Origin: Alphaproteobacteria bacterium | Lineage (GTDB): Bacteria > Pseudomonadota > Alphaproteobacteria > Rs-D84 | DNA: 51,868 nucleotides | Reading direction: 5' to 3' | NCBI GenBank assembly: GCA_017616785.1 | Contig: JAFZXK010000010.1 | Coordinates: 1 to 51,868, forward strand | Shown here: positions 15,808 to 38,431 of the stretch, piece by piece | How positions within the stretch are numbered: position 1 is the stretch's first letter | Layout: each line of letters opens with the position of its first letter | Notes under the pieces: model-generated | The model's database searches: none | What the model was told of the DNA's origin: nothing | What the model saw: only the letters and a program-made list of their open reading frames with translations | Translations under genes and position numbers: made by a program

Positions 15808-15808
15808 T

Positions 15809-16585: not shown

Positions 16586-17352
16586 TTTTTACCCCCTTTG
16601 CATTTTGTTTCACGTGTTAGAAATTCAATAATTTCTTTGTTCTTGGTCGTTTGTAAAATCTTTTGGGGCGCACCGTATGCGAGCACCGTTTTATTTCCGA
16701 TATACACCGCATTCGTTGCAATTGACATTATCGATGACAATTCGTGCGTTACCAATACGATTGTTGTCCCAAATTTTTTGTTTATTTCAACAATCAAATC
16801 ATCTAACTGCTTTGAACGAACGGGGTCAAGACCGGCGGATGGTTCATCGAAAAACAACGCACGCGGATTCAACGCCATTGCCCGCGCAAGTGCCGCACGC
16901 TTTATCATTCCACCACTGGCCTCGGTCGGGTAAAGATGCCAGTAACCACCGAGTCCAACAAGTTGAAGTTTTTTATCAACTTCCTTCTTTATCTCTTTAT
17001 TTGACATATTTGTTTTCATTTCCATCGGCAACGCAACATTTTCGCCCAACGTCATTGATGAAAATAATGCGCCACTTTGATATGACACACCAAATGTTTC
17101 AATTATACCATCGCGCGCATCCGCGGGCAGTGCCCAAATATCTTGTCCGCCAACGAATATATTTCCGCACATCGGCCTGTTCAGTCCAATAATTGAACGC
17201 ATAATTGTACTTTTGCCGCAACCGGACAATCCCATTATCACAAATATATCGCCGGTGTTTATATTGAAATTCAGATTTTCCACAACTACATTCCCGCCGT
17301 ACCCCAGCGTCAGATTTTCAATACTAATAAAAGGTTTCGCATTCGTACGCAT
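16582..17352 (-). CDS. mlaF: MlaF-type phospholipid ABC transporter ATPase
   Basis: A 256-residue ABC ATPase that powers phospholipid movement between the membranes. Walker A is GLSGCGKS (41-48), the signature is EASGGMIKRAALARA, and Walker B is ALFFDEPSAGLDP, followed by the switch His (VTHELSS). The wording around the signature (SGGMxKRxALARA) is typical of MlaF. The ATG at 17352 overlaps the mlaE stop (TAATG) and is preferred to a TTG five codons upstream. Confidence 0.93.
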   Translation of the reverse strand: MRTNAKPFISIENLTLGYGGNVVVENLNFNINTGDIFVIMGLSGCGKSTIMRSIIGLNRPMCGNIFVGGQDIWALPADARDGIIETFGVSYQSGALFSSMTLGENVALPMEMKTNMSNKEIKKEVDKKLQLVGLGGYWHLYPTEASGGMIKRAALARAMALNPRALFFDEPSAGLDPVRSKQLDDLIVEINKKFGTTIVLVTHELSSIMSIATNAVYIGNKTVLAYGAPQKILQTTKNKEIIEFLTRETKCKGGKK

Positions 17353-18200
17353 TATATATCCAACCAATTAAATATCACCGTTAGTATTGCGGTCGCGATA
17401 ATACAGCCAACAATACCTAACACAACCGCACGCGTTGTTGCGCGCCCTATGCCGTCCGCATTTTTATCGGCCCGCAATCCACAAATGCACCCGGTAATCG
17501 CAATTATCCAACCGAAAATCCATCCATGAAAGACACCGACCGCGAAATTCTTGAACGAAATCCAATTCAATGTCATTTGCCAATATTCGGCCACAGACAC
17601 ATTCATTATTGCCATCGCAACGCACATGCCGCCCAATATGGAAACCACATCCGCGATTATGGTAAGGAACGGCATAGTTATCGTCAGCGCGAACACACGC
17701 GGCAAAACCAAAAACTCCATAGGCGAAATTCCCATGGTTTTAAGTGCATCGATTTCATCATTTGCCCGCATAGACCCGATTTCCGCGGCATAAGATGCGC
17801 CTGTGCGACCCGCCATAATAATTCCGGCCATAATTGCGCCAACTATACGTACCATCGAAATCGCAACCAGTGCCGCCACATAAATTTCTGCACCGAAAAG
17901 TTCCAATTGCATATGGCCAACAAACGCGATAATAAGGCCAATCATAAAACTAATTAGACATATAATCGGAATCGCGCGCAGGCCGGCCTTGTCAATTTCA
18001 ACCCACAAATCAACACGGCGCATATCGCCACGTCCACGCAATGTATAATACATCGCACGAAAGACACGAAATACAAAACGGAAATTTTTATGAACCGATT
18101 GCGCTACACAAAAAGAACAATCACCAAGACGCCCAAAGATATCTATTTTATTTTTGGGCGTTTGGCTTGATGATTTTAATTTTTTTCTCCCCCCGTGCAT
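17352..18200 (-). CDS. mlaE: MlaE-type phospholipid ABC transporter permease
   Basis: A 282-residue permease with five to six hydrophobic segments and the conserved MlaE core (AGRTGASYAAEIGSMRANDEIDAL), the stretch that contacts MlaF. It works with MlaF and MlaD in maintaining outer-membrane lipid asymmetry. The N-terminal 45 residues are basic and longer than in E. coli. The start is supported by AAGGA, which overlaps the stop codon of the giant upstream gene only 12 bases away, with no terminator between them. The operon may therefore be read from the giant gene promoter or from a promoter hidden inside its 3' end. Confidence 0.92.
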   Translation of the reverse strand: MHGGRKKLKSSSQTPKNKIDIFGRLGDCSFCVAQSVHKNFRFVFRVFRAMYYTLRGRGDMRRVDLWVEIDKAGLRAIPIICLISFMIGLIIAFVGHMQLELFGAEIYVAALVAISMVRIVGAIMAGIIMAGRTGASYAAEIGSMRANDEIDALKTMGISPMEFLVLPRVFALTITMPFLTIIADVVSILGGMCVAMAIMNVSVAEYWQMTLNWISFKNFAVGVFHGWIFGWIIAITGCICGLRADKNADGIGRATTRAVVLGIVGCIIATAILTVIFNWLDI

Positions 18201-18212
18201 GTGATTCTGTCC

Positions 18213-21200
18213 TTACCACATCTTGTATCCTGGGTTACAGGTTCGGATACATTTCTTGGTGCGTTCATCCCAAACCTTGGTCCCGGTTTCGTCAGATGCA
18301 TTTTCACAAATCGGAACACATTCGTTATTTTGCAGCGCGTATTTCTGACCTTGGTACATACACGCGGCAATTTCGCATTCGTATATATAGCCACTGACCG
18401 CAACCTCACCATTCACACGACGATTAGCGCATTCATCACACGCGGTGTAACCACTGTTCGGTTCATATCCCGGATCGCATTTTGTAACATCACAATCAGA
18501 CCATCTCGATTCATTATTAATCCATGTACGGGTACCCTGTCCATGTTCCATAGTGCAGGTTTCCGTATCCTTTACACACGCATTACCGGAAACATGATAA
18601 CCTGGGTTGCATTCGCTAACGGTGCATGGGCCATATGTTCCGATTGCCGGATTCCATACACGAACCGCCCCGGTTCCTGGTGCATCCGGCACCGAACACG
18701 CCTTGACATTTGGTGTGCAGACGCCATGTTCAATGTGTTCGTCTTCGGCGCAACACATCGGATCAACGAAACATTCCTTGATCGATGTAGCGCCAGCCAG
18801 TGATGTCTGACAGGTCGGACAAGGTGTGCAGACCTCACCATCTTGGTATGTGCCGGCCGGACACTGCGTGCATGTCGCTTGGCACAATTGATTATTGTCG
18901 CCATCACAAACTATGTTCGGATAAGCATAACCCGGACGACAGGTTGCCGGTCCCCAGCCACACATATTATCAGTTATCGACTTTGTTCCGCACGATGTCG
19001 CACCTGTTTCAGTATTGGGTTCACATTTGCATTCTTCGCAAACACCATTGACCTCTACATCCGTACATTCTGTACAAGACGCAGTGCAATTTGTTGTATC
19101 ATCATTACACACGAGTGTCGGATCAACATAACCGGTTGAACAAGTCACAGGGCCCCAATTGCATGTATTCGTATCTGTTGCCACTGTTCCACAATCCGCC
19201 CCATTAGTACCCGAACAAACACACTGTTTACAAGTGTTGTTTGATAACGATATTTCATCATTTGCACATTCTTCCCAAATCGCCCTTAACCCCGTGTTAC
19301 CAACATAATCATATGTGTATGTATGACCTAATTCTGGGAAGTTACCGCCGGACACGCTATCCCATTGCGTCATTTTATGATGCGCATATGTGAACGTTGT
19401 ACCGCCTTTTGTTTCAAATGTTGCATCGTATGTAACCTGCTGGCTTACAGTTTGATTTTGACCGTTATTAGAGTTATATGTAACAGTGTATTCATCTGGA
19501 TCGCACCCACCACCATTTACATGATACCCCGGATCACATGTCAATGTACATGAACAAACGCCAGGTTCAGGCATAGTCAGAACATTTGTTCCATGCGCCA
19601 CAATCGCGCAATTGTCGCAATACACCGCACTAAAGTCCTTGCTTTCTGTGTAGTTCCATGTAACCACATCGCCCACCAAGTGCACCACTTGATCGCCGTT
19701 AAAGTACCAACCGGCAAATGTGGAATTATCACGGTGGCACCCAACAACCGCAAGGTTGTCAAGAACAGTATGTGTCGCACCATAGGTCATAGCAACACTG
19801 TTCGGTGCGATACCTTCGCCACTGCCGCAATTATAGTTTGCATAGGATGTGGCGAGTGTACAGGTCGCATTACATGTCGCCCCTGTGCAATTTGATTGCG
19901 GATTTGCATACCCTGTTTCACAGGTAACAACCGCATCGCAGGTATTATTTGCACTGAACGGATCGCAAGTATCGACACCCGCACCAGGGTTACACACACA
20001 CTGTGTGCAAACATATCCCGTTGCCGCCGTAGAGATATATCCATCGGCGCACTGTGTCCAATGTGCGTACAATGTCATGTTTTCTTCGACCCCAAATGGT
20101 GCAGATACCTGAACACCGCCGGTTGCCGCATTCCACCAACCCTTAAATTCGTATCCGTCACGTGTCGGTTCCGGCAAAGAATTCACGGTTGCCGCCAACC
20201 AATGTGCATACCATGTTTGGTCGTCCGCAGTGTTGATACCCGCGTTGTTACCATCCGCATTAATATACCAATTATCGTTGCTCGTATTCTGTGCTATATA
20301 TTGCTGACCATTAAATTGTGATTCGTAATAACCCAAGAACGACAACGAAAGTGTTGTTACATCATCATTTGTTGTCGGTGTTGCACATGAATTATTTTCG
20401 CCATCGCAATACTTTAATGTCAGATTTGCGGACTTTGTCGGGACAGCCGTCAACGGATATTGTGTTTCCGTCATTTGCTTGGTCCGTGCCTCATCACGAT
20501 ATACACCCGTGCCAAATATGGTATAAAGTGTGCCCTGGCCATTTGTCCCGGTTGCGTTATCACCAATCATATCATCCAGTGTGATTATATATTGGTCCGC
20601 AGAACACACTGCAACAATGTTTGCATCATAGCGTCTATTCCACTGATAACTGTTACCATTGTATTCTTCGGGTATAAGGTCACCGTTTTCCTGAATCTGC
20701 CATTTGGTACACGTGGTTCCGGTGGTTTCACAACTTGACGGATTTGGTACATTTACGTAACCACCATAATTTACATCATTGTATGTAACAAACGGATCTG
20801 CATTAGCCGTGCACTTGAATCGAACTGTGAATGGTCCGTCATTGTTGTTCCAATGCGCAATCCAAGTTTGACTTTCCGCTATATTTGGTGACGGCACAAT
20901 TATACCGTTCGCGGTAATCATTTGGTCCGCACCAAGATAGTAACCACCAAATACTAAACTCTGGTTTGGCACACCGGGCAATTCATCAGTGTTCAAACTT
21001 GTCAACGTGAATGGACCTTCTGGATCTTTGCTCCAACCATAGTTATACTTTTCATACAACTTGCCCACAAAGTTCGAATCAGTTATACCGCCATTGGCAT
21101 CCAATGTAAACGAATAAACGTTCGCGGTACACTCGGAAGTACATGTTGCACCATTGCAATTCGAGCTGAAATTACCGTAACCTGTTTTGCATTCGCCATT

Positions 21201-24200
21201 TGCTACGCATTGATTACTGTTATTCGAAGTGGCACTGCAAGAATAGACACCTTCACCGTTGATGCAATCACATGACAAGCACACACCATTATACCATATT
21301 TCCCCAGGATTGCACGGTGTGCAGGTCGCGGTGCAACTGGTGGTATCTTCGGAACAATTGATGGTCGGATTAATGTACATTGGATTACAAGTTGGTGACC
21401 ATGTACAAATATTTCCATTTGTTGACAATGAACCACAAGATGCGGTGTCACTATCGTTGCATGTACACGGTTTGCAAACACCACCGACCCAGATTTCATT
21501 CGCGGCACACGGCACGCATTCTGTTCCACTCCAAACGGTGTATCCCTGACATTGTTGACAAGTACCATTTATCAAGTGATAACCATTAACCTCGTCACAT
21601 ACGCAAACACCATTGACCCAGATTTCACCCAATCCGCATGGGCTATACTGTGCGGTGAATGTTTGATTCGATGTATAGTTCCACATATGCTGATCATCAG
21701 GTACCCGATCACCCGGTTGATATGTCAGGCCATTACCACTGAACTTCCAACCGCTAAATTCGTATCCAGATTTCGAACAATGTATGAATGGAAGTGAATT
21801 ATCTTTTACAGTATAGGGTTGGTCATATGTTGCAGTATCATACGCAGGTCCACCATTATCATCACCACAATCGTATGTGACATTATATTGATGCGGTGTG
21901 CATGTTGGATTACATGTGTATGTCGTTGGTCGATCGTATCCGTCGAAACATGTCGTAAAACATACACAAATTCCACTGCTGTTCATAGCATAACAATCCT
22001 GAACATGTGAATCATCAGAATACGTACATTGACAAACATCCCATTGTGCTTGAATCTCGGTACTTATTCCACTGGTTACACCGGTTTCACCGACTGTGTC
22101 GAATGTGCACATTGCAGAAGTTCCGGCGGATCTAATATCACCGTTCGCCAATTTCCAACCCTGGAACACTGCACTGTTATGTGCCGGTGCATTTGCTAAG
22201 GTCAACATGTTTTCTGGATCCGTGTAACATGATTGACAGGATATGGAATCACAACCATTGGTACAGAATTTACAACTGCCGTTATCGATTGTATTACCAC
22301 CGTTTTCATCCCAATCGATTGTGATTGTGTTACCAACGCATTGTGTATGGTCAACTTGATGATACCCAGAATCGCACGGTTCACATTGTGTCGCACCGGC
22401 CCCGGATACAGTATTTCCCGTACATGGCGAACATTGGGTGCCATTTTGATATGTTCCGGCTGGGCACTGCGTGCAACTAACATTAAGTATGTTATTGCAT
22501 TCCCCACTATAGCCGTATGATGCAACAGGAACATATCCGCCATAGCACGCAAACGTCGGAACACAAGTATTGTTTGACACCGATGCCGAGCACGATTGAA
22601 CACCTGTTCCAGAATTACACAAGCATTCCGCCCAATGCGCTTTTAATGTCGTGTCTTGGTTAACGTTGTATGTATATCCATGACTCAACAATGGGAACAG
22701 GCCACCAGACACGGTATCCCACTGGCAATTTATACTGTCTGTTTTGGTAATGTCGTTTCCACCAAGCGTTGTAAATGATTGATTATATGTCATGTTATAC
22801 ACGGTTTGGACACCGTTACTCACCGTTCCACCATTTGGATCATATGTCAATGTCAAACCGGTCGCCGCGACACAAGCACATTGTGTTTCATCCCAAGCAT
22901 ATCCAGTATTGCATGCAAATGTAACTTGGCAATTTTGGGCATTGCATGATCCGTTTTGTATGCTGGTATCTGGGCAACTTTCACACCAATGCGCATACAA
23001 GGTCGTATTTTCACCTATTTCAGTGTTATAATCAACTTGTGTTCCACCCGTTGGTTCGGTCCACCAACCATAGAATGCGTTCACCGCACAGGCATTCGTA
23101 TGTGACGGATTGCTTGGCCATCTTTGGCTGCCAATAGGACTTGCCAACCAATGGGCATACCATGTTTGGCTGTTGTCCGTGTACCCTTTACCCGCATTCA
23201 TACCACTTTCAGTGATATACCCTTTTAACACGCTGGATTCAGAGCGTGGTTCTATGTAACGCGTACCGCTGGTTAAATTGCTATAATACCCATTGAACGG
23301 CAAATCAACAGTTACTGGGTTGACCGATGAAACGCATTCCGGACAATTAAATGTCACAACGGCGTTATTAGTTGGCAAGTTTTCTTTTTCCAATGGGTTT
23401 TGGTTGGTCGTCATCTTATGTGTTCGTGCCGATTCAAGATAGACACCGGTATTATAAATTGTATAGAGTTTATCTTGTCCAGCATAGACCCCAGAGTTAT
23501 TATTCAAATTCGGATCAAGTGTGATTGTATATTCATCCTGTCTTACACAATGTCTGCCACAACTGGGGTCATCAGGGAAATAACCCGCACCTTGGTCGCA
23601 CCAGACACACCATCCGCAATTTTCTACCGCGGCATCACAAGAACCACCGAAATATTGCGTACCAGTATAATTCACGTTAGTGTAAGTACACGCAAGCGCA
23701 CCCGGTTCATGGTTCTCTACCGGTGGGCAAACCTCTGTACATGGAAGTTCGCAATCATCCTTGTAACAATGCTGTGGCGATGTTGCATCTATGTTGGAAT
23801 GCGGATAGCCATCCGGGCATTGGTTACATACGCCATTTGCGTAATATGTTCCATCACCGCATTCTGTATAATTGGCCGTAAAGGTTGGATTATCAATCGT
23901 AAATGTCCAAGGATTAAATGTGAACCCAGGATTATAGTTCGCATAATTGCCACTGAAGTTCCAATTTACGAATTCTTCGGCCCTTCTTCCTTCTATCACA
24001 TTGGCGGGTTTTGAACATGATACCACACCACCATTGCCTCTGCCATTTGGCAGAACGGTGTATGTTCCATTGTAATATACCGGATGTTGCGAATCTTGGG
24101 CACTTCCACCTTGGCCATCACCGCAATCGTATGTTACATCCGCATCGTTTCGATTCCAGTGTGCGTACAGTGTTATATTCACAGACACCGTCGCAGGATT

Positions 24201-27200
24201 AGATACCATCGTTCCGGTTTCATCCACTGTTGTCCACCAACCGGTAAACGCATAACCTGTACGTGTCGGGGTTGGCAAAATGGCCGAACCGTTACCAAAT
24301 TGTGCGTACCATGTATGTGGTTCTGTATAACCAATACCGGCAAGGCGTCCAGAATCAGTTATAAATGCGTATTCGGTATTATTTATGGTGCGAAGCGCGA
24401 TGTACGGTGCCACAAAACCCGGGGTTTCAGAGTTATAGAACCCATTGAATGAAAGCGGGACCTGGGCCGTACGTATTTCACCGCTGTTTCCACCCCAATT
24501 AACCGTACCGCCATTGGCATTAAGTGTTACGGCAACATTCTTTTCCGGATATGCACGCAACGGGTATTCATCAGGTGTCATCATTTGTGTCCGATTATAG
24601 TCACGATACACACCAACATTTTCGGTTGTATATAGCGTTGATGGGGTGGCCACACTGCCGCCATTGGAATCAAGCGTGATATAGGTCTTGGTATCCGGTA
24701 CACACTGATTGTTAACAATATGATAACCTGTTTCACATTCGGTTATACGGCAGTTACAGTCCGGTACAACTTGTGCGTCTGATGGTGACCAAATATCCAA
24801 AATACACCTATTTTCATACCAATTTACACCCGGATATTCAACAATATCAAACGTGGTTGATACAACATGTTCCGTTGGGCAAACTGACTGATTTCGTATG
24901 CATTCTTTTGAACATGATCCATCATAGCATTCTGATAATGAACCAGGCGCCGGGTTGTTGGTGTACGGTTCTGGGCATTCCTTGCAAACACCATTATCGT
25001 AATAGTGATGGTGCGGGCATTGTGTCCATATTGGCCGCCATGTTTCGTTGTTTGCTATCTCTGTATTTGACCCAGGTGTCCACACGCCATTGACGTTGAC
25101 ATTTCCGCGGCTTGCAAGTGTTACCACTTCTTCGAACCCGGCAAAAGAGAACCCTGTTTTCTTTGGCAATTGGTTACCACTTAGTGATGTAATCTGATTT
25201 TGTCCATTGCTATCCAATGCCCACCAACTGTCATACTTTTCATACAAATCCGTCACACCATATGTGGTTGCACCGGTTTGATCTATCGTTACATGATATG
25301 TGTTACCGGCACCATTCCAATCTGGGACGAAAACTTCGCCATAACGATATTCCCAAGGATATAGATAGGTGTTGGTCCTGGCATTAAGCATGGTGCCATG
25401 TTCTGTACCCTTCCATTTAGTAAATGTATAACCAGTACGCGGACACGCAGATTGCGCCTGGACCGTTATATCTTGTCCATACGTTACATTGGCGGTATAA
25501 AACGCATCACCATATTCATCACATTTAAATTGAACTGTGAATGGACCATTATTAGTACTGCAACGCGCATACCAAGTCATATTATTCGCATAGATTGGCC
25601 GTTGCACAACCGTACCATTGGTGCCATTGAAACTGATCATCTGATTACCGCCCGTCGGCGAGTCATAATATCCCAAGAATACGTAATCCGAATTATTTGG
25701 TAACGGCAATTCATTTTGATCCAACACCAAGTATTGTGTGAACCCGTCGGTCGGCGACTTGCTCCAACCAACATTATATTTTTCATACAGGTTTCTTAAG
25801 ATTTCTGTATTAGATTGTGAAACATAACTTGCACAATTATTCCAGTTCAATGTAACCGTATATATCAAATCGGTCCAACGTGCGTACAATGTTACATCAT
25901 TGTTCACAATACTGCTTGCAGTCACACGATTGCCGTATTCATCGTACCATCCGGCGAATGTATATCCTGGGCGCGTTGGTGTCGGGATAGAACCATTTTG
26001 ACTTACTGTGCCAAGTGCTTGCCCTTGCCACTGTGCGACCCATACCAAATCACTTCTGGTCCCTTTACCAACACTTTGCCCCTGTGCCGTGATAAGACCT
26101 GCGTCCGATATATATTCTGATGGACCTGTTGCAGAATCAAAGAACCCAAGGAACCCAAATGAAACATTTGCGCTCATAACATCCGGATAGGTGTATGTTT
26201 GACCATTCCAGTTGAATGTCGCACCCTCACCGTTTAGGTTGAATTTTGCAATGGCATAATTACTTGGTGTACGATTTAGTGGATGCGTACTTGGGGTCAT
26301 TTGGTATTGATCAATATAATCTTCGGCCAAATACACACCCTTGTTATGCCATGTATACAGGAATGCTGGATTACTGCTGGTACCATGTAACAAATTTGGA
26401 TCCAATCTTATTGTCCAATGTGAATCTTCTATACACACATGATTATTATTTGGATTTTGGACATAACCCGGCTCACATTCCACATAGTAATCGCACGCAG
26501 GGATAATACCATCGGAATTTGTGCATACGTTCAACGGGTTCGGATAGTAAACCATTCCGCTATACTGTTGTACGTCGTAAACACATTCACTAATGTGATT
26601 CTGATGTGCGACACACCCCGTGCTGTCGCAAGTGCCGGTACAATTTTTATAGCAATCTTCATGCACGACTGGGGACGGATTGTCATGATAATTTAAATCA
26701 CACTCTTTACATTGTTCGGTTCCATAGTCATAGTAATAATAGTTCGGGCAAGAACTCCACTGCGCTTTCCAAATCTCATTACTGCTTAGATCCGTTGTTT
26801 GTGGCAACACCCACCTATCACCATTGAAATATCCACGTTGTGTACCGGATTCATTCTTGTATCCTGCAAATCTAAGTGGCGCATTTGTTGGTAATTGATT
26901 ACCGCTAAGCGATGTAATCGGATTCGTCAATCCCGCATCCGTGAACCAATCCATGCCGACCGCATCCCACAATTCTGTGACCGAACCGGAATTTCCACCA
27001 TTTGGATTCAGTTCCACATGATACAAATCTTTCGTATTTGGGACAAAAACTTCATCAAACCAATAATTCCATGATGCATATGTACCGGCATCAAGTAAAA
27101 TATCCGGATGCCCGACCCCCTTCCATTGGTTAAACGCATACCCTGAACAGAAACTTGCCGCAGGGACAGTTAAATCATCACCGAAGTGCACGGTTTGAAC

Positions 27201-30200
27201 GGGTATTACATCCGAACCATTTGCGGTGCATCTGAACCTAACGTTAAATGTGGCGTTCGTATTCGGCACATAGTGTGCATACCATGTTTGATCATCGTCG
27301 CCAACCGTATTTGCCGGTAAAGGTGTCGTACCGTTTCTGCTTACGAAACCGTTTGGTTGAATCACCCGGCTGCCCCCGGATGGCGCGGTCCAATAACCAT
27401 CGAATATTTTGGTTGCATCTTGCCATTGTGGTAAATCAGATGAGTCCAAAATAAATTCCAGATTGAAAGTACCATTCCGCAATGTATCCCAACCTGTATC
27501 ATATTTTTCATATAGTGTATCCACGCCTGGAATTCCGCCATTTGCATCCAAACGAACCTCGTAAATATCCGGGTCGCAACGTAACATTATTGCGTTCCAC
27601 TGATAATGATCCGGGCATACAGGATTGCCAAGCAGATTGCATGTATCCGGAATTATTGGATCATCATAGTAAGGATCAAAACATTCCCTGCTGTTTTCTG
27701 TTGGTCTATAACCCTCTTGTGCATTGGGTGATGCGGGATTATATGTGCAAACTGTGCCTTCTGGATAGGTTGGTGTTGGACACGCAACAGGATTCGTCGG
27801 ATATCCAGTCCATGTACAAGGTACTTCACACCTGCGCTTGCATTCACCATGCACCAATATATAACCAGATGGACAATCACTGTAATAGGCCGTAAAGGTC
27901 GGCGGCGTTACACGATAGCGCCAAGGATCAATCATTTGACCTTCGTTATATGTCGTACCAGGGTTACCATTAAATTCCCAATGATTAAACTGACCGGTTG
28001 ATGATGAACAATTAACGACGCTATTATAAAGCACGTTATAAAATCCACCATATGTTATCGGATGCGCCGTGTCAGAATACGTACTGCCCCCGTTACCGCA
28101 CTTGTATTCGGCGGTATATGTTGCCGGTTCACAAACCACACCGTTCAAAGCGTCGCCATCATTAGGTTGACCGGTAATTGTAACTATACCATTGTTACTT
28201 GCACTGTTACCGTAAGTATAGCAATCGTAATAGGACGACATATAGCAAGATTCACATTTGACCTTGTATGTGCAAACACCATTTCCATAAGTTACGGAGT
28301 CCAGTGTTGTATGCGCTGTGTTCGACAACTGTGCCGGGCACATTTCTGATGTTCCGCTACATGTTCCACTAATATACGCCGTCGCGCCGTTTGCATATAC
28401 CCCAAGGTATTCCTTGGTACATGAAATCGATTGACCACCGCTAAATGGTCCCGTATATTGGCTGCCATTTGTGGTCCAAGTATTAAATACATAACTTGAC
28501 CCGACCATTGGTGTTGGTAATGTAAGTTGACCACCATAAGTGCAACTTGATGGTTGCGTTGGTGCGGTGGCACCACATTGATTAGTAAAGTTATAAACTA
28601 TATTTATTGTATTCCCATCACCGCACGTTGTGCCGTTCCAAGTATAACCATCTTCACAACCCCACCATGCATAATAATCCTTGTTGCCACAATCCATGCT
28701 ACTTATTACTGGATTTTGCGTGCAACCCTGGGTCAATTCGGGATCTGTGCACCATCCCTTGAACACCTGATGGGCCTGTGTTGGATTTATTGAACAACTG
28801 ATGGTAACGGTATTTCCAAAGGTATAACTTGTCTGGTAACAACCATTGTATACTGCACTACCATTATGATAAGTAATGGTGTAATTCCCCGCCGTCCAAT
28901 GGGCATACAGATTTGTTGTAGCAACGGTCGGCATATATGTCATACCAGCAGATCCAGCATACCCTAAATCTTCAAATTGATTCGTCCACCAACCGTTAAA
29001 GGTATAGCATTGACGTTGCGCGTCCGGCAATGTTATTGACCCATTTTGCCATTGTGCGTGCCAAACGGTTGAATTACTCTGATTCTGTTGTGCCGCTGTA
29101 TTACCACTGTCCGTTATAGCACCAGTATCAGATATGTACTTTGTTCCACCGATTTCAGAAGGATAAAAACCATTGAACTCGAAATTCACGTTTGTAGTTG
29201 CTTGCGACATCGGATAACCATTCCATGTGACAGTACCGTTATTCCCATACAGATTCACAGTCGCAGATTTTTCCGGCACAGCGTACAACGCATTGCTCCC
29301 ATTGGTGCCCATCTGCAAGGTGCGGGGTTGATCCAAATATGCACCACCGGTTTCTCCGTATCTTGTATAAAGGACCTCTGGCGAGCTAGCGTGACCACCG
29401 AAACCATCAATATGACTATTTAGTGATATCTGATACTCATTCGGAATACATTCGGTGTTGGTCTGATTTTGATGGTAACCCGTTTCACAATCAACCGTAT
29501 AGTTACATGTTATAATTTCGTTGTTAGTATTCACGCAATTCGTTGTGGGGTAATACATATAACCGCTGTAATTATTTTGATTTGTATCATAGTGACATGC
29601 GGTAATATGATCTTCGCCTACGGTGCACCCTGTCTGAACACAAGTATGGCAAATCGCATAGCATCCATTGTGGGTTCCTGGATACATATTGTCATGATAT
29701 GTTTGTTCACACTCTTTGCACTCGCCATTTTCATAATAATAGTACAGTCCACAGGAATTCCATTGTGCATACCATGTTTCATTGCTGGCTATTTGTGGCT
29801 CCACTATTCTCCATCCATTATCAAATAATACTCTCGGTTCACCACCATTTGGTGCGGTGGTGTATCCGTTGAAATTATTATCTTGTTTTGTCGGTAATTG
29901 AGCGGTGGTAAAGTATGAAATCTGACCGCCCTGCTCGTTATTGTTATAGATATAGAATTTATCATCGAATATTTCTAACAACTTATTAACCGAACCCGGT
30001 GTTCCACCGTTTGCATCCAATGTCATTACATATTGGTTTGCATTCCAATCAGCGACAAATGTTTCACCGTGTGTGTGGTTCCATTGGTACTGATATGTTG
30101 CACCAAGAGCGTCAAGCGTTGCCGGGGCATTATTTATGGTCGCCTTCCATTGATTATAAGAATATCCCTCCTTATTGCACGCCGAATCCGACGGAACGGT

Positions 30201-33200
30201 TATATTTTCATTATATGCCACATTGAAATCATATCCACTAATAACCGAACCAGTTTCACTGCACTTGAATTGGACATGATATTTTGTGTCCGGATTCGGC
30301 ACACAATCCCATACATCTGAATTCCAGATGAGTGCAGAATCGTTACACACCACATCGTTCAATGCACACACACCAAGATTTATGATTTGACCGTAATTCG
30401 GGTTACTTGGAAGATATGCACAATTTCCATCATCGTCGATATATCCATCAATCGTTTGTTCGGTATAAGAGCATGTTACATAATTTGGATATGACGGGGT
30501 ATGATCCGGGCATCCACTCGGTACAGTACAAGACCTTTGACACGTATTACGGCATATACCATTCACAACAACTTGATTTGAACCACACGGTGTATAAGTT
30601 GCCGTAAGTGTTCCATTGCCATAAGTCGCGTTCCACGTTATCGATTGACCCGCCAAATAAGTGTATTCGTTACCACTAAACTTCCACCCAGCAAAACCTT
30701 GGTTCGCATTTAACGATGTGCAATATCCCGGCGTACCTATAACGCCACCCGCGCCATTCGGCAATACTGTATATGTGGCGCCCGCGACAACTTGATTTTC
30801 ACTATCCAGGAAGTTACCAGTTGGTGTACCGGCGCCACAATTATAACTGACGGTGTATTTTGTGTTCGGATCAGTCACACAACCGGTACCGTTCCAAATT
30901 TCCCCGGCGGCGCAATACTGTGGGTAAAGGGTGCGGGTGCCAATTTGATTTGCGGACAATGGACTTTGTGCAAATGCGATTGCATTACTACTGTCTAACC
31001 CAAGGGCTTCTGTGACATATTGCGTCGCGTTGCTGCTGGTACTGTCATAATATCCTTTGAACGATGCGGACGGGGCGTCCCCACCATCTGGATTTGGTGC
31101 AAGGTCGGTCGGATAGATTATGAATGTATATTTTATACTGTTATTTTCCGGTGCCACGCTTTGCTGCCCAAGACCGACAACATGACTCCAAATCTTTGTA
31201 TCGCCCGTAAGATATCCAGATTGATTTGGGTTACGATTACCGATTATATAACGTGTTCCAACCTGTGTAGAAGCGCGATCTACAAAACTCATCAACGATT
31301 CCATAGGCTTAAGCGCACTTGTTCCACCGACCAAAACACGCGGACAATATTTTATGCTTCTATCTTCACAGACATTGAAACGATTGGGATTATCCGTTCT
31401 TTCATTCCCATAGAACGCGATTTGTTTGTTACCGGAATTGTTCGCTGGCGACAAGAAATTCACTGTGTCATAACTGGCAAAACCTAAATTATTATCATAG
31501 TCGCATTCCCAATCACAGAACCTGTAACACTGATTTATGCTCCAGTTATATGGGCTGTGGGCATTTGTGTAGCCGGCCGGGCACCCCGTGACCGCCGGAA
31601 CACAAGAAGTTCCATTCCAAACCTGATTATCTGGACATGCGACACAGTCATCTTTGGTATCATTCAAATGATAACGACCATCTGAATCATCGCAAGTCCA
31701 TTGTGCATAAAATATTTTGTTATTGCATGTATTATTTGAAAACTCTCTTGGCATATCGCAATTTGTGGTCAGATCATTATCGTCGCACCACGCCTCAACA
31801 TGACCAATTACCACATTATTTTCATCAAGAAGTTGTGGTGCACCGTTAATGGTTGTTGAAGAACTGTTGCAAGTATAGGATGCGGGCATATTACCGTCAC
31901 CCAATACCAGGGTATGACCGGCCGCAGTATGACCATTGGTGATTGCTGGAATCTTTTCATAAGTTATTGTCCTGGTATTCGAACCTGTCCAAATTGCGGT
32001 AAATGTTTTGTTTTGTGTATAGTTCCATGTAAACTCTTCCCCAGGTTCTTTTGTATCATTTACTTCACCTGATACGCGCCAGCCAGATAATGTATACCCG
32101 CTAATACTATTATTACAATTTGGGGCTGTATTCGCCGCAACAATTTGATTACCGGCGTATATTCCAGTTACTTGATCTGGCGGTGTGCCGTCATCACCAT
32201 CACCGCAAGAATATGTCAATGTATATGTTGGATCCGCCGTGTATTGCGCGTACAGATTGCGGGTATAATTGCTGTCGCCTATAATCGGGCTCATGTTGTT
32301 CATTGCGGGACTTAAATTCGTTGCGTAACCGATGATGTTCGCAGCATTAGCGGCGGTCAAAGCCAAGTTACTTTCAACAAATGTTGTTCCATCACTTTGC
32401 GGATATGCGTAACCCCCAAACGTATAGTGTTGCAGGTTTGTTGCCGCTGGGGCAAGTGCCGCAGGGTATATGATGTTTATAATCGGTTCTGGTTCACTAA
32501 GTTGCGCGGCACCGACAACCTGGCTCCAAGTAAAGCCGTTAGCAAGTGTATAAACACCCCCATTTACACTACGCCCGCCGACAATGTATCGTGGCGAATC
32601 AATTTTTTCATAAGCACCGTTCGCGTCAAGTTTTTGATAAAAGTCGACCGCGGCCGCCATGTTTTTATTGGCACCCGTATACCCCGCCGCCAAAAACCCT
32701 TGAGGACAATACGCCGCGCCCGTCGATTCAAGACAGGTGTTAAACGCACCTGTGGTGGCATATTCATTACCATAGAAAGAAATTTGCTTTCCGGTGGTTC
32801 CATTTATCAAGTCATCCGGCAAAAACTGTTCCATATTATGACCCGACACGAATTCAACAACGGAACACGTTTCTTGCGCACCCGTTCCAGAACCACATTC
32901 ACGATAACATTGTTTTACACTCCAATTATATGGGGCTCTAGTGTTCCAAGTATATGAACGTGCATTTACGTTTCCGTATTCGCCAATCCATTCATTACAA
33001 GTCAAACACCTGTTAGTATTATCATCCCAAAACTCCCCATTATCGCACGTTACACACACGCCGCCTTCATCGTGATATGGGAAATTACATTCATAATGTG
33101 CAAATAACCCGGTATTGTCAGCGACTGTCCAGCTTCCACCGTCCGAAGTTAAGGCACCATTTCCGTCCACACCGTAAAAGATTTGTAAATTCGGGGTTGG

Positions 33201-36200
33201 AGTTTGATCGTAATAACCAACAAATGTCGCATTTTCTTTGGTCGGCAAATGGCCCGCCACGGTCGGATTGTTATCAGGCGTGGTACAGGTTGCATTTGAA
33301 TACCATACGGTATTGTAATCACTGTTGCGATGTTTTTTGTAAAACGCACTGTGCGTACCACTATTGTTTGGCGTGCCACCATTTTCGTTAAATGTTACCG
33401 CATAACATGTCTCGGTCCAACGTGCATATAACGTAAGATTTTCGGATACTTGATTGTACGTTCCCGCGCCAAAAACATAGGTGCCAGTATCTGGAATTTC
33501 CGTTCCATCTGTGGTATACCAACCCTGGAAAGTATGTCCCGCCCATACCGGTTTTGGTAATGTTATCGTGCCATTTTCCCAATGCGCATACCAGGTTGCA
33601 TTGCCTGTATAGTACGTGCCGGTATGAATACCGCCACTGTCACCATTGGTAAGATACCAGCCATCACCATCGTTACCAGATTCATTACGATCTATGTATT
33701 GTGTTGATGTATCTGTACTTGCATAGAAACCGTTAATAGCAAGATTTACAGATGGACTTGCATGATCATTATTCTGATTAGGATAAGTTACACCATCAAA
33801 AACAAAAGATGCGCCATTACCATTCGGATAAAGATTTACCGTAACAGATTTTGTTGGCACTTCATACAACGGGTTATCACTGGCGCTCATTTCTTGTCCC
33901 TGCGGACGGTTTGAATCACGGTATACACCGATACCGTACTTTGTATAAAGTTTCTGTTTGCTTTCTGGTACGGTGCCCCAATCACCATTATTAGCATTCA
34001 ATGTTATGTAATATTCGCCCGGCAACCATTTTGCTACAAATCTTGGACTATTATCAGTACACAACCAACGTTCAATTTCGTCACCATCATCATAAGGCGT
34101 TTCTGTAGAACCACAATGAAGGATCCAACCACCAGGGACAAACCCAACAGGCACATTACATTCAATTATTTCATCATCCGTAAAACTGGAACCCGTGTGT
34201 TGTCTGTTAACTTTATAGTATTCGGCATACGTTGCGCCACCATATTGCCCACCAACCGCATCTGTTGCGGTCTGATTTTGTTGACCGTTGTTACAATCAT
34301 ATGTCACTGTATAACTTATGGCCTCGCAATCATCACCGTTTGGCTGATAGCCCTCTTTACAAGTATATTGTGCATACAATTCAGTAGCATTATCTATCGT
34401 CCAATCAGTACCGTCAGAAGTCAGTTCACCTTGGTAGTCGAAAATGCCAACACCCGATCCGCCAACATTTGTGTTATATCCAATAAATTCTGCATTTTCC
34501 TTGGTGGGCAAATTACGCGTAATCACTTCTTCAACTGATAACTCCTCGCCACTGCAAGTATTATCAGTTGCGGCATACCACGTTGTTTGGTTGATATCTT
34601 TATAAAACGGATCATTTCCACCATTGGTGCTTTGACCATTATTTGCCGTATCATTAAAGGTTACCGCAACACAAGATAACCCCCAATGTGCATACAATGT
34701 GGTATTATCCGTGACAGTATATGGACTGGTGATTTCAGTTCCACCTGTTTCCTCAGTAAACCATCCAAGGAATGTATGTCCCGGCCAAAAATCATCGGAA
34801 ATTGTTGGTAGCGTTACACTGCCGTTACCCCATTGTGCATACCATGTTTTATTGGATGTATAATACTTACCATCAAAATCGCCTTGATAGGTGATATACC
34901 ATTTTTGGGTGGTTGAGTCAAAAGATATGTATGGCGAACCCGAAGTCGCACCCCGATAAAATCCGTCAAACGCTATTTCTACTTCTTGCTCGGTATCCGA
35001 ATGCGTAGGATTTGCACAGGAATCACCATCGCAATATTTAAATGTCACCGTCGCGGTCTTTTCCGGAATCTTTTCCAATGGATTATCGGTGATCGTCATT
35101 TTCTCCCCGGGTTCCCGTGTCGAATTAATATAAACCCCATCGGAATATATGGTATAAAGTTTACGTTTCTCAGCCGGAACATCGTTATTCCATGCGCCAC
35201 TTGTCGGATCTAATGTAATTTCAAATTCGCCTTTGCCCCATGTCGCCGTAAATGTACCATTGTCATCCCAAGTCCATTGTTCTATTGGCTCATGATTATC
35301 GTACGTTCTGCTGTCAAGATTAAACAGCCATCCGGTAAAAACCTTTCCGGGTTGTGGTGTACATTCCACATTTTCATCTTCACCAACAGGCAGTATTGGA
35401 CTATACACAACCCCATTGACTTTGTATGAATCATTGAAATTTACAGTATCTGTCCCGGTATACTGATTGATTTCATTATCACAAATATATGTGACAGTGT
35501 AATTGTTTGCGACACAATCCCCGTTTACAAAATGGTACCCGGTATTACAGTCAAAATGCGCATAAAGTGTACGCCTGTTGGACGTGGCGACCCAAATATT
35601 ATTCGACACCAACGTTGAATAATCCCCGGTGGGATGCGGTTCAAATACATATATTTCGCTCGGCGATGGTCCATAATACCCAGTAAACGTTGCGTTATTT
35701 TTTGTTGGTTTGCCGTCCACCTGTGGATTTTCAATCTGTTTTTTACAACCGGCCTCGTACCATTTATTACCTGTCTCACCATCAATTTTATATAACTTGT
35801 TATGACCACCACTTGGGGCCGTGCCACCATTTGTGATATCATCAAAAATTACTTCTAAACACGTGCCCGTCCAACTTGGAATAAATATGACCGGATCGTT
35901 AACACATGGCCAACTGGCAATTGTTCCACTGCTGGTTCCAGGCATATATGGTCCAGAGTAGTTATCGTTGGTTAATATCCACCCATCAAATTGTTGACCA
36001 TTACTTGGCGGTGTACATAAACTTGCTGAACCCGTCACGGTGTATGGTTGACCATATATGGCATCGTTACCAGTGGCAACAGACACCCCATCTAAAGAAC
36101 ACCGGTACTGTGGGGTTTTATTGGTTTTTGGTACACATGTCTCGCCATCGCTAGAAGGAACATAGCAATATTCATCACAAGTTATCGTTTTACATTCTTG

Positions 36201-36632
36201 CGATATGTTACATTGGGTATCACCGCAGGATAACGTTCCACCTACCGTTTCAATAATTGGGAAACAACCGTTTGCCTCCAAACAGTCGGCGGGTATTATA
36301 CATGCACCACTACATGTTCCTGTGCACGAATCCGCTTCTGCGGCACCCACTCTGGTTGTCAACCAATAATTATTTGTTCCACACTCAGACCTACAAGGTG
36401 CTAGCCCTTGATCTTCTGGGACTTTTTCTTTGTAATTTTCTGCATTCGGACAATAAACCCCCTGGTCAGTGCCATCAATACTTTTGTGTCCAGGGCATTC
36501 TGCACATTGATCACTGCCCGCGGGCAGATATTGTCCCGGATTGCAAACCACGGCCCATGCATCGACAAATGGCGTGATGCCAAGCGTCACAAAAAAGCCC
36601 AGAAAACCGAGGAATCTAGCGAATTTCTTCAT
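18213..36632 (-). CDS. Giant secreted Cys-rich InlB-type repeat protein, 6139 aa (putative adhesin)
   Basis: One uninterrupted frame of 6139 codons. Residues 1-26 are a Sec signal peptide. The rest is built from about forty (my count by eye) Listeria-Bacteroides/InlB B-type repeats, each ending in words such as LYAHW, WYAQW or FTATW after a GYxFxGW core. They alternate with Cys-rich EGF/TNFR-like pieces (CxxGYxxxxxxCxP, CKEC, CPAGTYQ). At least seven copies of a longer unit (LYTIYxxGVYxxxxRxxxM ... TWYAHW ... LYAHW) can be seen, plus two copies of a different module near 30912-31547 and 32241-32927. There is no transmembrane segment, sorting signal or barrel at the C-terminus (ends GYKMW), so how it is held at the surface is unclear. 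Shine-Dalgarno AAGGGAG and a promoter at 36657-36685 support the start. Host or particle adhesion is inference. Confidence 0.85.
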   Translation of the reverse strand: MKKFARFLGFLGFFVTLGITPFVDAWAVVCNPGQYLPAGSDQCAECPGHKSIDGTDQGVYCPNAENYKEKVPEDQGLAPCRSECGTNNYWLTTRVGAAEADSCTGTCSGACIIPADCLEANGCFPIIETVGGTLSCGDTQCNISQECKTITCDEYCYVPSSDGETCVPKTNKTPQYRCSLDGVSVATGNDAIYGQPYTVTGSASLCTPPSNGQQFDGWILTNDNYSGPYMPGTSSGTIASWPCVNDPVIFIPSWTGTCLEVIFDDITNGGTAPSGGHNKLYKIDGETGNKWYEAGCKKQIENPQVDGKPTKNNATFTGYYGPSPSEIYVFEPHPTGDYSTLVSNNIWVATSNRRTLYAHFDCNTGYHFVNGDCVANNYTVTYICDNEINQYTGTDTVNFNDSYKVNGVVYSPILPVGEDENVECTPQPGKVFTGWLFNLDSRTYDNHEPIEQWTWDDNGTFTATWGKGEFEITLDPTSGAWNNDVPAEKRKLYTIYSDGVYINSTREPGEKMTITDNPLEKIPEKTATVTFKYCDGDSCANPTHSDTEQEVEIAFDGFYRGATSGSPYISFDSTTQKWYITYQGDFDGKYYTSNKTWYAQWGNGSVTLPTISDDFWPGHTFLGWFTEETGGTEITSPYTVTDNTTLYAHWGLSCVAVTFNDTANNGQSTNGGNDPFYKDINQTTWYAATDNTCSGEELSVEEVITRNLPTKENAEFIGYNTNVGGSGVGIFDYQGELTSDGTDWTIDNATELYAQYTCKEGYQPNGDDCEAISYTVTYDCNNGQQNQTATDAVGGQYGGATYAEYYKVNRQHTGSSFTDDEIIECNVPVGFVPGGWILHCGSTETPYDDGDEIERWLCTDNSPRFVAKWLPGEYYITLNANNGDWGTVPESKQKLYTKYGIGVYRDSNRPQGQEMSASDNPLYEVPTKSVTVNLYPNGNGASFVFDGVTYPNQNNDHASPSVNLAINGFYASTDTSTQYIDRNESGNDGDGWYLTNGDSGGIHTGTYYTGNATWYAHWENGTITLPKPVWAGHTFQGWYTTDGTEIPDTGTYVFGAGTYNQVSENLTLYARWTETCYAVTFNENGGTPNNSGTHSAFYKKHRNSDYNTVWYSNATCTTPDNNPTVAGHLPTKENATFVGYYDQTPTPNLQIFYGVDGNGALTSDGGSWTVADNTGLFAHYECNFPYHDEGGVCVTCDNGEFWDDNTNRCLTCNEWIGEYGNVNARSYTWNTRAPYNWSVKQCYRECGSGTGAQETCSVVEFVSGHNMEQFLPDDLINGTTGKQISFYGNEYATTGAFNTCLESTGAAYCPQGFLAAGYTGANKNMAAAVDFYQKLDANGAYEKIDSPRYIVGGRSVNGGVYTLANGFTWSQVVGAAQLSEPEPIINIIYPAALAPAATNLQHYTFGGYAYPQSDGTTFVESNLALTAANAANIIGYATNLSPAMNNMSPIIGDSNYTRNLYAQYTADPTYTLTYSCGDGDDGTPPDQVTGIYAGNQIVAANTAPNCNNSISGYTLSGWRVSGEVNDTKEPGEEFTWNYTQNKTFTAIWTGSNTRTITYEKIPAITNGHTAAGHTLVLGDGNMPASYTCNSSSTTINGAPQLLDENNVVIGHVEAWCDDNDLTTNCDMPREFSNNTCNNKIFYAQWTCDDSDGRYHLNDTKDDCVACPDNQVWNGTSCVPAVTGCPAGYTNAHSPYNWSINQCYRFCDWECDYDNNLGFASYDTVNFLSPANNSGNKQIAFYGNERTDNPNRFNVCEDRSIKYCPRVLVGGTSALKPMESLMSFVDRASTQVGTRYIIGNRNPNQSGYLTGDTKIWSHVVGLGQQSVAPENNSIKYTFIIYPTDLAPNPDGGDAPSASFKGYYDSTSSNATQYVTEALGLDSSNAIAFAQSPLSANQIGTRTLYPQYCAAGEIWNGTGCVTDPNTKYTVSYNCGAGTPTGNFLDSENQVVAGATYTVLPNGAGGVIGTPGYCTSLNANQGFAGWKFSGNEYTYLAGQSITWNATYGNGTLTATYTPCGSNQVVVNGICRNTCQRSCTVPSGCPDHTPSYPNYVTCSYTEQTIDGYIDDDGNCAYLPSNPNYGQIINLGVCALNDVVCNDSALIWNSDVWDCVPNPDTKYHVQFKCSETGSVISGYDFNVAYNENITVPSDSACNKEGYSYNQWKATINNAPATLDALGATYQYQWNHTHGETFVADWNANQYVMTLDANGGTPGSVNKLLEIFDDKFYIYNNNEQGGQISYFTTAQLPTKQDNNFNGYTTAPNGGEPRVLFDNGWRIVEPQIASNETWYAQWNSCGLYYYYENGECKECEQTYHDNMYPGTHNGCYAICHTCVQTGCTVGEDHITACHYDTNQNNYSGYMYYPTTNCVNTNNEIITCNYTVDCETGYHQNQTNTECIPNEYQISLNSHIDGFGGHASSPEVLYTRYGETGGAYLDQPRTLQMGTNGSNALYAVPEKSATVNLYGNNGTVTWNGYPMSQATTNVNFEFNGFYPSEIGGTKYISDTGAITDSGNTAAQQNQSNSTVWHAQWQNGSITLPDAQRQCYTFNGWWTNQFEDLGYAGSAGMTYMPTVATTNLYAHWTAGNYTITYHNGSAVYNGCYQTSYTFGNTVTISCSINPTQAHQVFKGWCTDPELTQGCTQNPVISSMDCGNKDYYAWWGCEDGYTWNGTTCGDGNTINIVYNFTNQCGATAPTQPSSCTYGGQLTLPTPMVGSSYVFNTWTTNGSQYTGPFSGGQSISCTKEYLGVYANGATAYISGTCSGTSEMCPAQLSNTAHTTLDSVTYGNGVCTYKVKCESCYMSSYYDCYTYGNSASNNGIVTITGQPNDGDALNGVVCEPATYTAEYKCGNGGSTYSDTAHPITYGGFYNVLYNSVVNCSSSTGQFNHWEFNGNPGTTYNEGQMIDPWRYRVTPPTFTAYYSDCPSGYILVHGECKRRCEVPCTWTGYPTNPVACPTPTYPEGTVCTYNPASPNAQEGYRPTENSRECFDPYYDDPIIPDTCNLLGNPVCPDHYQWNAIMLRCDPDIYEVRLDANGGIPGVDTLYEKYDTGWDTLRNGTFNLEFILDSSDLPQWQDATKIFDGYWTAPSGGSRVIQPNGFVSRNGTTPLPANTVGDDDQTWYAHYVPNTNATFNVRFRCTANGSDVIPVQTVHFGDDLTVPAASFCSGYAFNQWKGVGHPDILLDAGTYASWNYWFDEVFVPNTKDLYHVELNPNGGNSGSVTELWDAVGMDWFTDAGLTNPITSLSGNQLPTNAPLRFAGYKNESGTQRGYFNGDRWVLPQTTDLSSNEIWKAQWSSCPNYYYYDYGTEQCKECDLNYHDNPSPVVHEDCYKNCTGTCDSTGCVAHQNHISECVYDVQQYSGMVYYPNPLNVCTNSDGIIPACDYYVECEPGYVQNPNNNHVCIEDSHWTIRLDPNLLHGTSSNPAFLYTWHNKGVYLAEDYIDQYQMTPSTHPLNRTPSNYAIAKFNLNGEGATFNWNGQTYTYPDVMSANVSFGFLGFFDSATGPSEYISDAGLITAQGQSVGKGTRSDLVWVAQWQGQALGTVSQNGSIPTPTRPGYTFAGWYDEYGNRVTASSIVNNDVTLYARWTDLIYTVTLNWNNCASYVSQSNTEILRNLYEKYNVGWSKSPTDGFTQYLVLDQNELPLPNNSDYVFLGYYDSPTGGNQMISFNGTNGTVVQRPIYANNMTWYARCSTNNGPFTVQFKCDEYGDAFYTANVTYGQDITVQAQSACPRTGYTFTKWKGTEHGTMLNARTNTYLYPWEYRYGEVFVPDWNGAGNTYHVTIDQTGATTYGVTDLYEKYDSWWALDSNGQNQITSLSGNQLPKKTGFSFAGFEEVVTLASRGNVNVNGVWTPGSNTEIANNETWRPIWTQCPHHHYYDNGVCKECPEPYTNNPAPGSLSECYDGSCSKECIRNQSVCPTEHVVSTTFDIVEYPGVNWYENRCILDIWSPSDAQVVPDCNCRITECETGYHIVNNQCVPDTKTYITLDSNGGSVATPSTLYTTENVGVYRDYNRTQMMTPDEYPLRAYPEKNVAVTLNANGGTVNWGGNSGEIRTAQVPLSFNGFYNSETPGFVAPYIALRTINNTEYAFITDSGRLAGIGYTEPHTWYAQFGNGSAILPTPTRTGYAFTGWWTTVDETGTMVSNPATVSVNITLYAHWNRNDADVTYDCGDGQGGSAQDSQHPVYYNGTYTVLPNGRGNGGVVSCSKPANVIEGRRAEEFVNWNFSGNYANYNPGFTFNPWTFTIDNPTFTANYTECGDGTYYANGVCNQCPDGYPHSNIDATSPQHCYKDDCELPCTEVCPPVENHEPGALACTYTNVNYTGTQYFGGSCDAAVENCGWCVWCDQGAGYFPDDPSCGRHCVRQDEYTITLDPNLNNNSGVYAGQDKLYTIYNTGVYLESARTHKMTTNQNPLEKENLPTNNAVVTFNCPECVSSVNPVTVDLPFNGYYSNLTSGTRYIEPRSESSVLKGYITESGMNAGKGYTDNSQTWYAHWLASPIGSQRWPSNPSHTNACAVNAFYGWWTEPTGGTQVDYNTEIGENTTLYAHWCESCPDTSIQNGSCNAQNCQVTFACNTGYAWDETQCACVAATGLTLTYDPNGGTVSNGVQTVYNMTYNQSFTTLGGNDITKTDSINCQWDTVSGGLFPLLSHGYTYNVNQDTTLKAHWAECLCNSGTGVQSCSASVSNNTCVPTFACYGGYVPVASYGYSGECNNILNVSCTQCPAGTYQNGTQCSPCTGNTVSGAGATQCEPCDSGYHQVDHTQCVGNTITIDWDENGGNTIDNGSCKFCTNGCDSISCQSCYTDPENMLTLANAPAHNSAVFQGWKLANGDIRSAGTSAMCTFDTVGETGVTSGISTEIQAQWDVCQCTYSDDSHVQDCYAMNSSGICVCFTTCFDGYDRPTTYTCNPTCTPHQYNVTYDCGDDNGGPAYDTATYDQPYTVKDNSLPFIHCSKSGYEFSGWKFSGNGLTYQPGDRVPDDQHMWNYTSNQTFTAQYSPCGLGEIWVNGVCVCDEVNGYHLINGTCQQCQGYTVWSGTECVPCAANEIWVGGVCKPCTCNDSDTASCGSLSTNGNICTWSPTCNPMYINPTINCSEDTTSCTATCTPCNPGEIWYNGVCLSCDCINGEGVYSCSATSNNSNQCVANGECKTGYGNFSSNCNGATCTSECTANVYSFTLDANGGITDSNFVGKLYEKYNYGWSKDPEGPFTLTSLNTDELPGVPNQSLVFGGYYLGADQMITANGIIVPSPNIAESQTWIAHWNNNDGPFTVRFKCTANADPFVTYNDVNYGGYVNVPNPSSCETTGTTCTKWQIQENGDLIPEEYNGNSYQWNRRYDANIVAVCSADQYIITLDDMIGDNATGTNGQGTLYTIFGTGVYRDEARTKQMTETQYPLTAVPTKSANLTLKYCDGENNSCATPTTNDDVTTLSLSFLGYYESQFNGQQYIAQNTSNDNWYINADGNNAGINTADDQTWYAHWLAATVNSLPEPTRDGYEFKGWWNAATGGVQVSAPFGVEENMTLYAHWTQCADGYISTAATGYVCTQCVCNPGAGVDTCDPFSANNTCDAVVTCETGYANPQSNCTGATCNATCTLATSYANYNCGSGEGIAPNSVAMTYGATHTVLDNLAVVGCHRDNSTFAGWYFNGDQVVHLVGDVVTWNYTESKDFSAVYCDNCAIVAHGTNVLTMPEPGVCSCTLTCDPGYHVNGGGCDPDEYTVTYNSNNGQNQTVSQQVTYDATFETKGGTTFTYAHHKMTQWDSVSGGNFPELGHTYTYDYVGNTGLRAIWEECANDEISLSNNTCKQCVCSGTNGADCGTVATDTNTCNWGPVTCSTGYVDPTLVCNDDTTNCTASCTECTDVEVNGVCEECKCEPNTETGATSCGTKSITDNMCGWGPATCRPGYAYPNIVCDGDNNQLCQATCTQCPAGTYQDGEVCTPCPTCQTSLAGATSIKECFVDPMCCAEDEHIEHGVCTPNVKACSVPDAPGTGAVRVWNPAIGTYGPCTVSECNPGYHVSGNACVKDTETCTMEHGQGTRTWINNESRWSDCDVTKCDPGYEPNSGYTACDECANRRVNGEVAVSGYIYECEIAACMYQGQKYALQNNECVPICENASDETGTKVWDERTKKCIRTCNPGYKMW

Positions 36633-36917: not shown

Positions 36918-36966
36918 AACTTGCTTCGTCCCGCGGTCCCCCCCCTTTTTTCACAAGTGAATGGGA

Positions 36967-38349: not shown

Positions 38350-38357
38350 GTGTGTGA

Positions 38358-38386
38358 ATTTTATCACATTAACGCGGACAAGACAA
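38358..38386 (-). promoter_or_regulatory. Promoter of the MFS gene, predicted leaderless transcript
   Basis: On the minus strand TTGTCT (38381-38386), 17 bases, TAAAAT (38358-38363), eight bases from the ATG. Confidence 0.5.
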
Positions 38387-38431
38387 TATAAATTGCTTTA
38401 TTTTTGGCTTTTTTTGTGCAAGGATATTGCC

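Follow-up and report, generated by a model that had tools for sequence, protein, structure and literature searches.

The giant gene and its locus

The window analysed here comprises 51,868 nt of contig JAFZXK010000010.1 (assembly GCA_017616785.1), from the 1.06-Mb genome of a Candidatus Enterousia-type gut alphaproteobacterium of the order Rs-D84. One gene occupies 35.5% of it, in agreement with the original prediction that over a third of the window is a single gene, and encodes 6139 residues in one unbroken frame whose ATG lies shortly after the Shine-Dalgarno-like AAAGGGAGAAAAT (Table 1). The alternative forward frames contain 219 and 547 stops, and the GC pattern across codon positions is even over all 18 kb. 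The predicted protein has a calculated mass of ~670 kDa and a pI of 4.3, is rich in Asn, Thr and Gly, and contains ~300 Cys residues (4.9% of the total). Its N-terminus, MKKFARFLGFLGFFVTLGITPFVDAWA followed by VVC, has the form of a Sec-type signal, and the N-termini of its relatives are alike (MGKxRxFLGxxxSLF...A). Hydrophobicity (KD-19) reaches its maximum of 1.72 at the signal vs 1.21 in the rest of the protein. As the signal is thus the sole strongly hydrophobic stretch, no second membrane anchor is visible, and the earlier description of one secreted repeat protein without a visible anchor is upheld.

The gene stands in a recognizable setting, between pif1/lon on one side and, in the ruminant clade, mla/rne on the other. 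Of the 46 relative loci in which the ORF is complete and upstream DNA is available, 33 have a divergently oriented PIF1-like helicase gene upstream, and lon often lies farther out. The window likewise contains pif1 and a Lon-like gene, with an MFS-type gene and a tRNA-Met separating the giant gene from pif1. Downstream of the gene, in the window as well as at eight loci of the ruminant clade, mlaE or its aligned start lies within 0–37 nt of the stop codon; mlaF comes next, then mlaD and a pqiC-like gene. A poultry species (L088) has an HI0933-like flavoprotein gene downstream instead of mlaE, and the mla linkage is therefore clade-specific. A G+C-rich segment of ~50 bp situated upstream of the gene (36869–36922) has ~20 similar copies genome-wide and resembles a REP-type or small mobile repeat.

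Table 1. Features of the giant gene and its neighbours, in window coordinates
Feature	Position	Strand	Evidence or remark
Giant secreted protein gene	18213..36632	-	ATG start, 6139 aa, single unbroken ORF
Sec-type signal sequence, residues 1-27	36552..36632	-	Sequence and hydrophobicity; putative AWA cleavage site
Long unit copy 1 (aa 468-660)	34653..35231	-	E 8e-82
Long unit copy 2 (aa 872-1082)	33387..34019	-	E 4.6e-74
F domain copy 1 (aa 1226-1440)	32313..32957	-	Profile comparison
F domain copy 2 (aa 1690-1886)	30975..31565	-	Profile comparison
Cys module copy 1 (aa 2298-2402)	29427..29741	-	E 1e-40; just ahead of long unit 3
Long unit copy 3 (aa 2394-2590)	28863..29453	-	E 3.1e-71
Cys module copy 2 (aa 3299-3408)	26409..26738	-	E 3.8e-45
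Long unit copy 4 (aa 3398-3597)	25842..26441	-	E 1.7e-71
Cys module copy 3 (aa 3876-3985)	24678..25007	-	E 1.4e-42
Long unit copy 5 (aa 3976-4170)	24123..24707	-	E 2e-78
Cys module copy 4 (aa 4263-4370)	23523..23846	-	E 8.9e-38
Long unit copy 6 (aa 4361-4560)	22953..23552	-	E 3.5e-76
Long unit copy 7 (aa 5342-5534)	20031..20609	-	E 2.9e-82
Cys-rich C-terminal domain (CTD), ~185 residues (aa 5954-6139), ends ..CNPGYKMW-stop	18216..18773	-	Profile searches, alignment and predicted structure
MlaE-family lipid ABC permease	17352..18200	-	PF02405 E 7.9e-68; starts 12 nt past giant gene's stop
mlaF-, mlaD- and pqiC-like genes, mla-type operon continued	15202..17367	-	Profile matches
PIF1-like helicase gene, family's conserved divergent neighbour	38348..39700	+	PF05970 E 1.9e-26

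Repeat and domain architecture

In a Pfam scan of the giant protein, cut-offs were passed by Flg_new and Flg_new_2 only. PF09479 scores 126.4 and 33.3 bits against a curated cut-off of 27, with an E-value of 4.7e-37 in the C-terminal half, and TIGR02543 also matches (23.1 bits vs a cut-off of 20.95). An iterated profile recovers at least 21 B-like domains. These are in part organized into a long unit of ~190 residues that is present in exactly seven copies, each with E<=3.1e-71, holding two B-like domains and, for copies 2 to 7, sharing 33–43% identity with the first. The top match of the long-unit profile in the PDB is the B-repeat of Internalin B (2y5p_A, E 6.9e-8). The InlB-type B repeats and the seven or more diverged long units of the original prediction are thus both present. 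When the protein was searched against itself in pieces, larger duplicated blocks appeared as self-matches spaced 570, ~1000 and ~1580 residues apart, with 34–40% identity. No tandem DNA repeats were found in the gene, which indicates that the repeats of the protein are old.

Two further modules are interspersed among the B-like domains. A Cys module of ~107 residues occurs in four copies, each immediately ahead of one of the long units 3 to 6. The second, termed here the F domain, is an unnamed region of ~215 residues that occurs in two copies, is common to seven ruminant-clade relatives and shows conservation at W, N, G, F and Cys positions. Neither Pfam nor the PDB yielded a family match above threshold; weak single-sequence PDB matches to a C-type lectin and a penton (E 0.01–0.1) disappeared when a profile was used, and both assignments were rejected. 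The expectation of EGF/TNFR-like Cys-rich pieces holds in part: the protein is Cys-rich and a resemblance can be seen, but no EGF or TNFR Pfam model passed its cut-off (cEGF 14.3 bits vs 26.6), and membership in these families was dropped. The Pfam scan likewise found no known adhesive domain, none of the internalin leucine-rich repeats with their cap, and no LPXTG or GW anchor. A type V outer-membrane beta-barrel was not found at the C-terminus either, where no Pfam barrel matches and the predicted fold is soluble and Cys-rich.

A conserved C-terminal domain

The most constant part of the protein is its last ~185 residues, a domain (CTD) that, like the conserved gene neighbourhood, was absent from the original prediction. 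The giant protein's own CTD matches the family profile with an E-value of 1.9e-79 and finishes at the stop codon. Of 59 genomes from the genus, 36 gave matches to the last 400 residues, usually reaching the final residue, and the proteins of relatives also terminate in the domain, for example with CNPGYKMW or CKEGYTMW. Across the order, strong matches (E<=4e-33) occur in 95 of 201 genomes, which come from a single family and represent 10 genera; another 10 genomes give weak matches. In the class, the CTD was found in 4 of 385 genomes, all four from the giant gene's own genus. When ~85,000 species genomes were scanned, 78 loci were returned. Almost all of them carry the labels Alphaproteobacteria, proteobacterium or Rickettsiales and are associated with ruminant, poultry or termite guts; the loci include Candidatus Enterousia intestinigallinarum and one record labelled Clostridia. 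The domain was not found in phages. About half of the order's genomes, some of them nearly complete, are without it, so the CTD is not essential to the lineage.

The CTD matches no Pfam family at its cut-off and no PDB sequence. Structure prediction of the C-terminal region, proposed earlier as a check, yields a confident beta-rich fold: AlphaFold2 with 75 sequences gives a pLDDT of 93.6 and a pTM of 0.71, and the alignment has 29 invariant columns, with most Cys among these. Foldseek searches of the PDB with models built from 12 and from 75 sequences returned nothing at E<=1e-3. Structural alignment gave weak likenesses to TNFR1 (Z 2.6, rmsd 7.9 over 67 residues), laminin LE (Z 2.1) and R-spondin (RSPO, Z 2.0), values too low to mean homology. 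Relative to L056, its nearest relative, the CTD has a dN of 0.15, a dS of 0.70–0.79 and a dN/dS of ~0.2, and is under purifying selection in this comparison; it changes faster than the neighbouring genes. Elsewhere in the order, proteins of ~800–1000 residues show weak partial matches to the first ~70–100 residues of the CTD (for example G143:C4:8265-8468), some of them with stops.

The remainder of the protein behaves differently. Pieces of 120 residues taken from the last ~200 residues match 69 ORFs of relatives, and pieces from elsewhere match 0–25, at 30–60% identity and in changed order. Among complete members, the CTD aligns pairwise over a median fraction of 0.99, and the rest over 0.48. 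Wide conservation is thus confined to the last ~185 residues; the other ~5950 vary greatly in length and order among species. The 51 complete relative ORFs range from 310 to 3428 aa (median 2148), with a usual length of ~2,000–2,500 aa; further listed members reach 4469 aa, and the giant protein is the longest CTD protein among those listed. The nearest complete relative, L057 (2889 aa), has two long units and L064 has one, compared with seven here, which fits the proposed growth by old duplications followed by diversification.

Of the strong selection for an intact gene that had been claimed, one part therefore stands and another does not. That the gene is kept under selection is supported, since 51 relatives carry complete ORFs with the same CTD, and the dN/dS of this domain speaks for constraint; selection over the whole length does not follow, as only the C-terminal end is widely conserved.

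Proposed role

A recognized pattern for fibrillar adhesins, an export signal together with repeated stalk domains, is found in the giant protein. Flg_new is counted as a stalk domain of such proteins (PMC9210967), and List-Bact repeats are counted with the adhesion factors of gut methanogens (PMC7883539). Rs-D84 genomes are without many biosynthetic pathways, and their bearers have been proposed to be partner-dependent (PMC12306168). Taken together, the domain content and the pattern of conservation tip the balance, if narrowly, towards a disulfide-stabilised surface protein of the fibrillar adhesin type, in which a variable B-repeat stalk is joined to a fixed C-terminal surface module and the protein, bound to the cell via its CTD, attaches to cells, mucus or particles. 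Such a protein probably helps a metabolically dependent bacterium to touch other cells. Host contact, the role suggested originally, is a plausible candidate; the protein may instead bind other bacteria, protists, mucus or feed particles.

The giant protein would cross the inner membrane by Sec, be oxidised to form disulfides in the periplasm, and pass to the outside by a route not linked to any named export system. Type I secretion is unlikely given the N-terminal signal. The genome encodes a DsbA-like thioredoxin, one secretin and several TolC-type outer-membrane proteins, none of them linked to the giant gene. The secretin gene is next to one for a TcpQ-domain protein, an arrangement known from type IVb pili, and does not lie in a clear type II secretion cluster. 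Once outside, the CTD would retain the protein on the cell, as its fixed place and conservation suggest, while the stiff, fibre-like middle would reach out and bind other cells, mucus or particles. By changing rapidly, the middle would adjust the reach and specificity of the fibre, and the end module would keep its fixed role. A bolder version, rather unlikely at present, is that an undescribed machinery of the outer surface, dedicated to the attachment or export of giant disulfide-rich fibres, recognises the CTD and is coupled in the ruminant clade to the mla-type lipid transporter whose genes lie 12–37 nt downstream. As for a general sorting tag, this idea is weakened, since the extra CTD proteins of a single genome are paralogues with related passengers, the one exception being L091 (310 aa). 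Separately, the arrangement on contig C11 of the same genome (L151:5830-8580), in which the TcpQ-domain gene directly precedes the sole secretin gene, suggests a type IVb pilus-like or competence system, and stands in a lineage reported to be without motility machinery.

The same features can be read in other ways. The CTD may be a binding tip that is conserved for a constant ligand, with the N-terminal side nearer the cell. The domain is predicted to be well-folded and Cys-rich, is without anchoring hydrophobic residues and weakly resembles the receptor-type Cys ladders named above, but these Z-scores fall short of homology, nothing would hold the N-terminus to the cell if the signal is cleaved, and an adhesive tip usually diversifies more rapidly than its stalk, opposite to the pattern found here; this orientation is considered unlikely, if worth keeping in mind. 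That the protein is not bound to the cell but is a soluble matrix or scavenging protein, such as a mucus-like coat or a means of glycan or nutrient capture, would agree with its single hydrophobic stretch, its acidity and its Asn/Thr/Gly-rich composition. Releasing 670 kDa would, however, be very costly for a partner-dependent cell with a 1-Mb genome, and the fixed C-terminal module suggests constant contact with the producing cell, which makes this quite improbable.

Less credible still is an enzyme or effector carrier, in which the repeats are a mere holder and the F domain or another unnamed region is catalytic or toxic. The conserved positions of the F domain and its presence in seven relatives lend themselves to such a role, but the domain belongs to no family above threshold, shows no recognised catalytic motif and is missing from most of the family. 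Finally, the length itself, which far exceeds the 2148-aa median of the complete relatives and is known from one assembly of the species, might reflect an assembly chimera or neutral expansion in a small population. A chimera of several genes is unlikely given the family-typical N- and C-termini, the syntenic flanks on both sides and the even codon composition of an unbroken frame, and mis-assembly of repeats is unlikely because the copies are only 33–43% alike; the gene is also free of tandem DNA repeats, and other long members reach 3,000–4,500 aa. This last explanation is accordingly given very little weight.

A second giant gene and the significance of the family

The same genome holds a second giant gene (contig C25:36950-59662, L134-L135), located between tolQR/tolA-like genes and secA. 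Its 7570-aa product carries a signal sequence and B-repeats, together with consecutive NMFxxTFxxCxxLTG repeats that are similar to BspA-type leucine-rich repeats, and has no CTD like that of the 6139-aa protein. Its last 150 residues (L135:11211-11660) form a different tail, which recurs on many smaller proteins across 40 of 96 genomes of the genus, with up to 11 per genome, and which resembles a general sorting tail more closely than the CTD does.

A literature search found no paper describing giant proteins in the Rs-D84 lineage. Rs-D84/Enterousia bacteria, whose genomes are ~1 Mb in size, are frequent inhabitants of ruminant, poultry and termite guts, and on their contact with partners one study mentions hypothetical membrane proteins only (PMC12306168). 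The giant protein, with its conserved ends and variable middle, provides a concrete candidate for this contact. The CTD can serve as a marker to find the family in any metagenome and, as an expressible 185-aa domain with a confidently predicted fold, as a handle for antibodies, pull-downs and structure work.

Comparison with known systems

The family is new and has an undescribed CTD, while its kind, giant fibrillar surface proteins, is known, because giant surface proteins of small-genome symbionts have already been reported (PMC12863079, PMC10266531). The B-like domains are those of Internalin B and the Listeria-Bacteroides repeat (PF09479, Flg_new), with 2y5p as best structural profile match. 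InlB, however, is a leucine-rich-repeat protein of ~630 aa from a Gram-positive bacterium with GW anchors, whereas the giant protein is ten times longer, has no known anchor and is interspersed with Cys modules. Fibrillar adhesin-like proteins are similarly long, exported, built on repeated stalk domains including Flg_new, and rapidly evolving (PMC9210967), but the giant protein differs from them in having no known adhesive domain or Gram-positive anchor, in being disulfide-rich, and in its unnamed conserved CTD. Gram-negative C-terminal sorting domains, such as the type IX CTD, also place a fixed C-terminal domain on variable exported proteins; the CTD described here is without a Pfam match and is found on an unrelated passenger in one exception only.

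Among giant proteins, Giant1-5 of Apilactobacillus kunkeei are extracellular proteins of 3,000–8,000 aa that are encoded in a 1.5 Mb symbiont genome and diversify in a fixed locus (PMC12863079). They are, in contrast, Gram-positive, carry beta-solenoid N-terminal heads and are encoded by five consecutive genes, and the likeness is one of description only. The giant SPEARE-type proteins of nanohaloarchaea are acidic surface proteins of 8,900–9,400 aa with a Sec signal and repeated domains, made by partner-dependent cells with tiny genomes (PMC10266531); these are archaeal, with an Ig-like stalk, a membrane anchor and a VirB4-like ATPase domain, none of which is seen in the giant protein.
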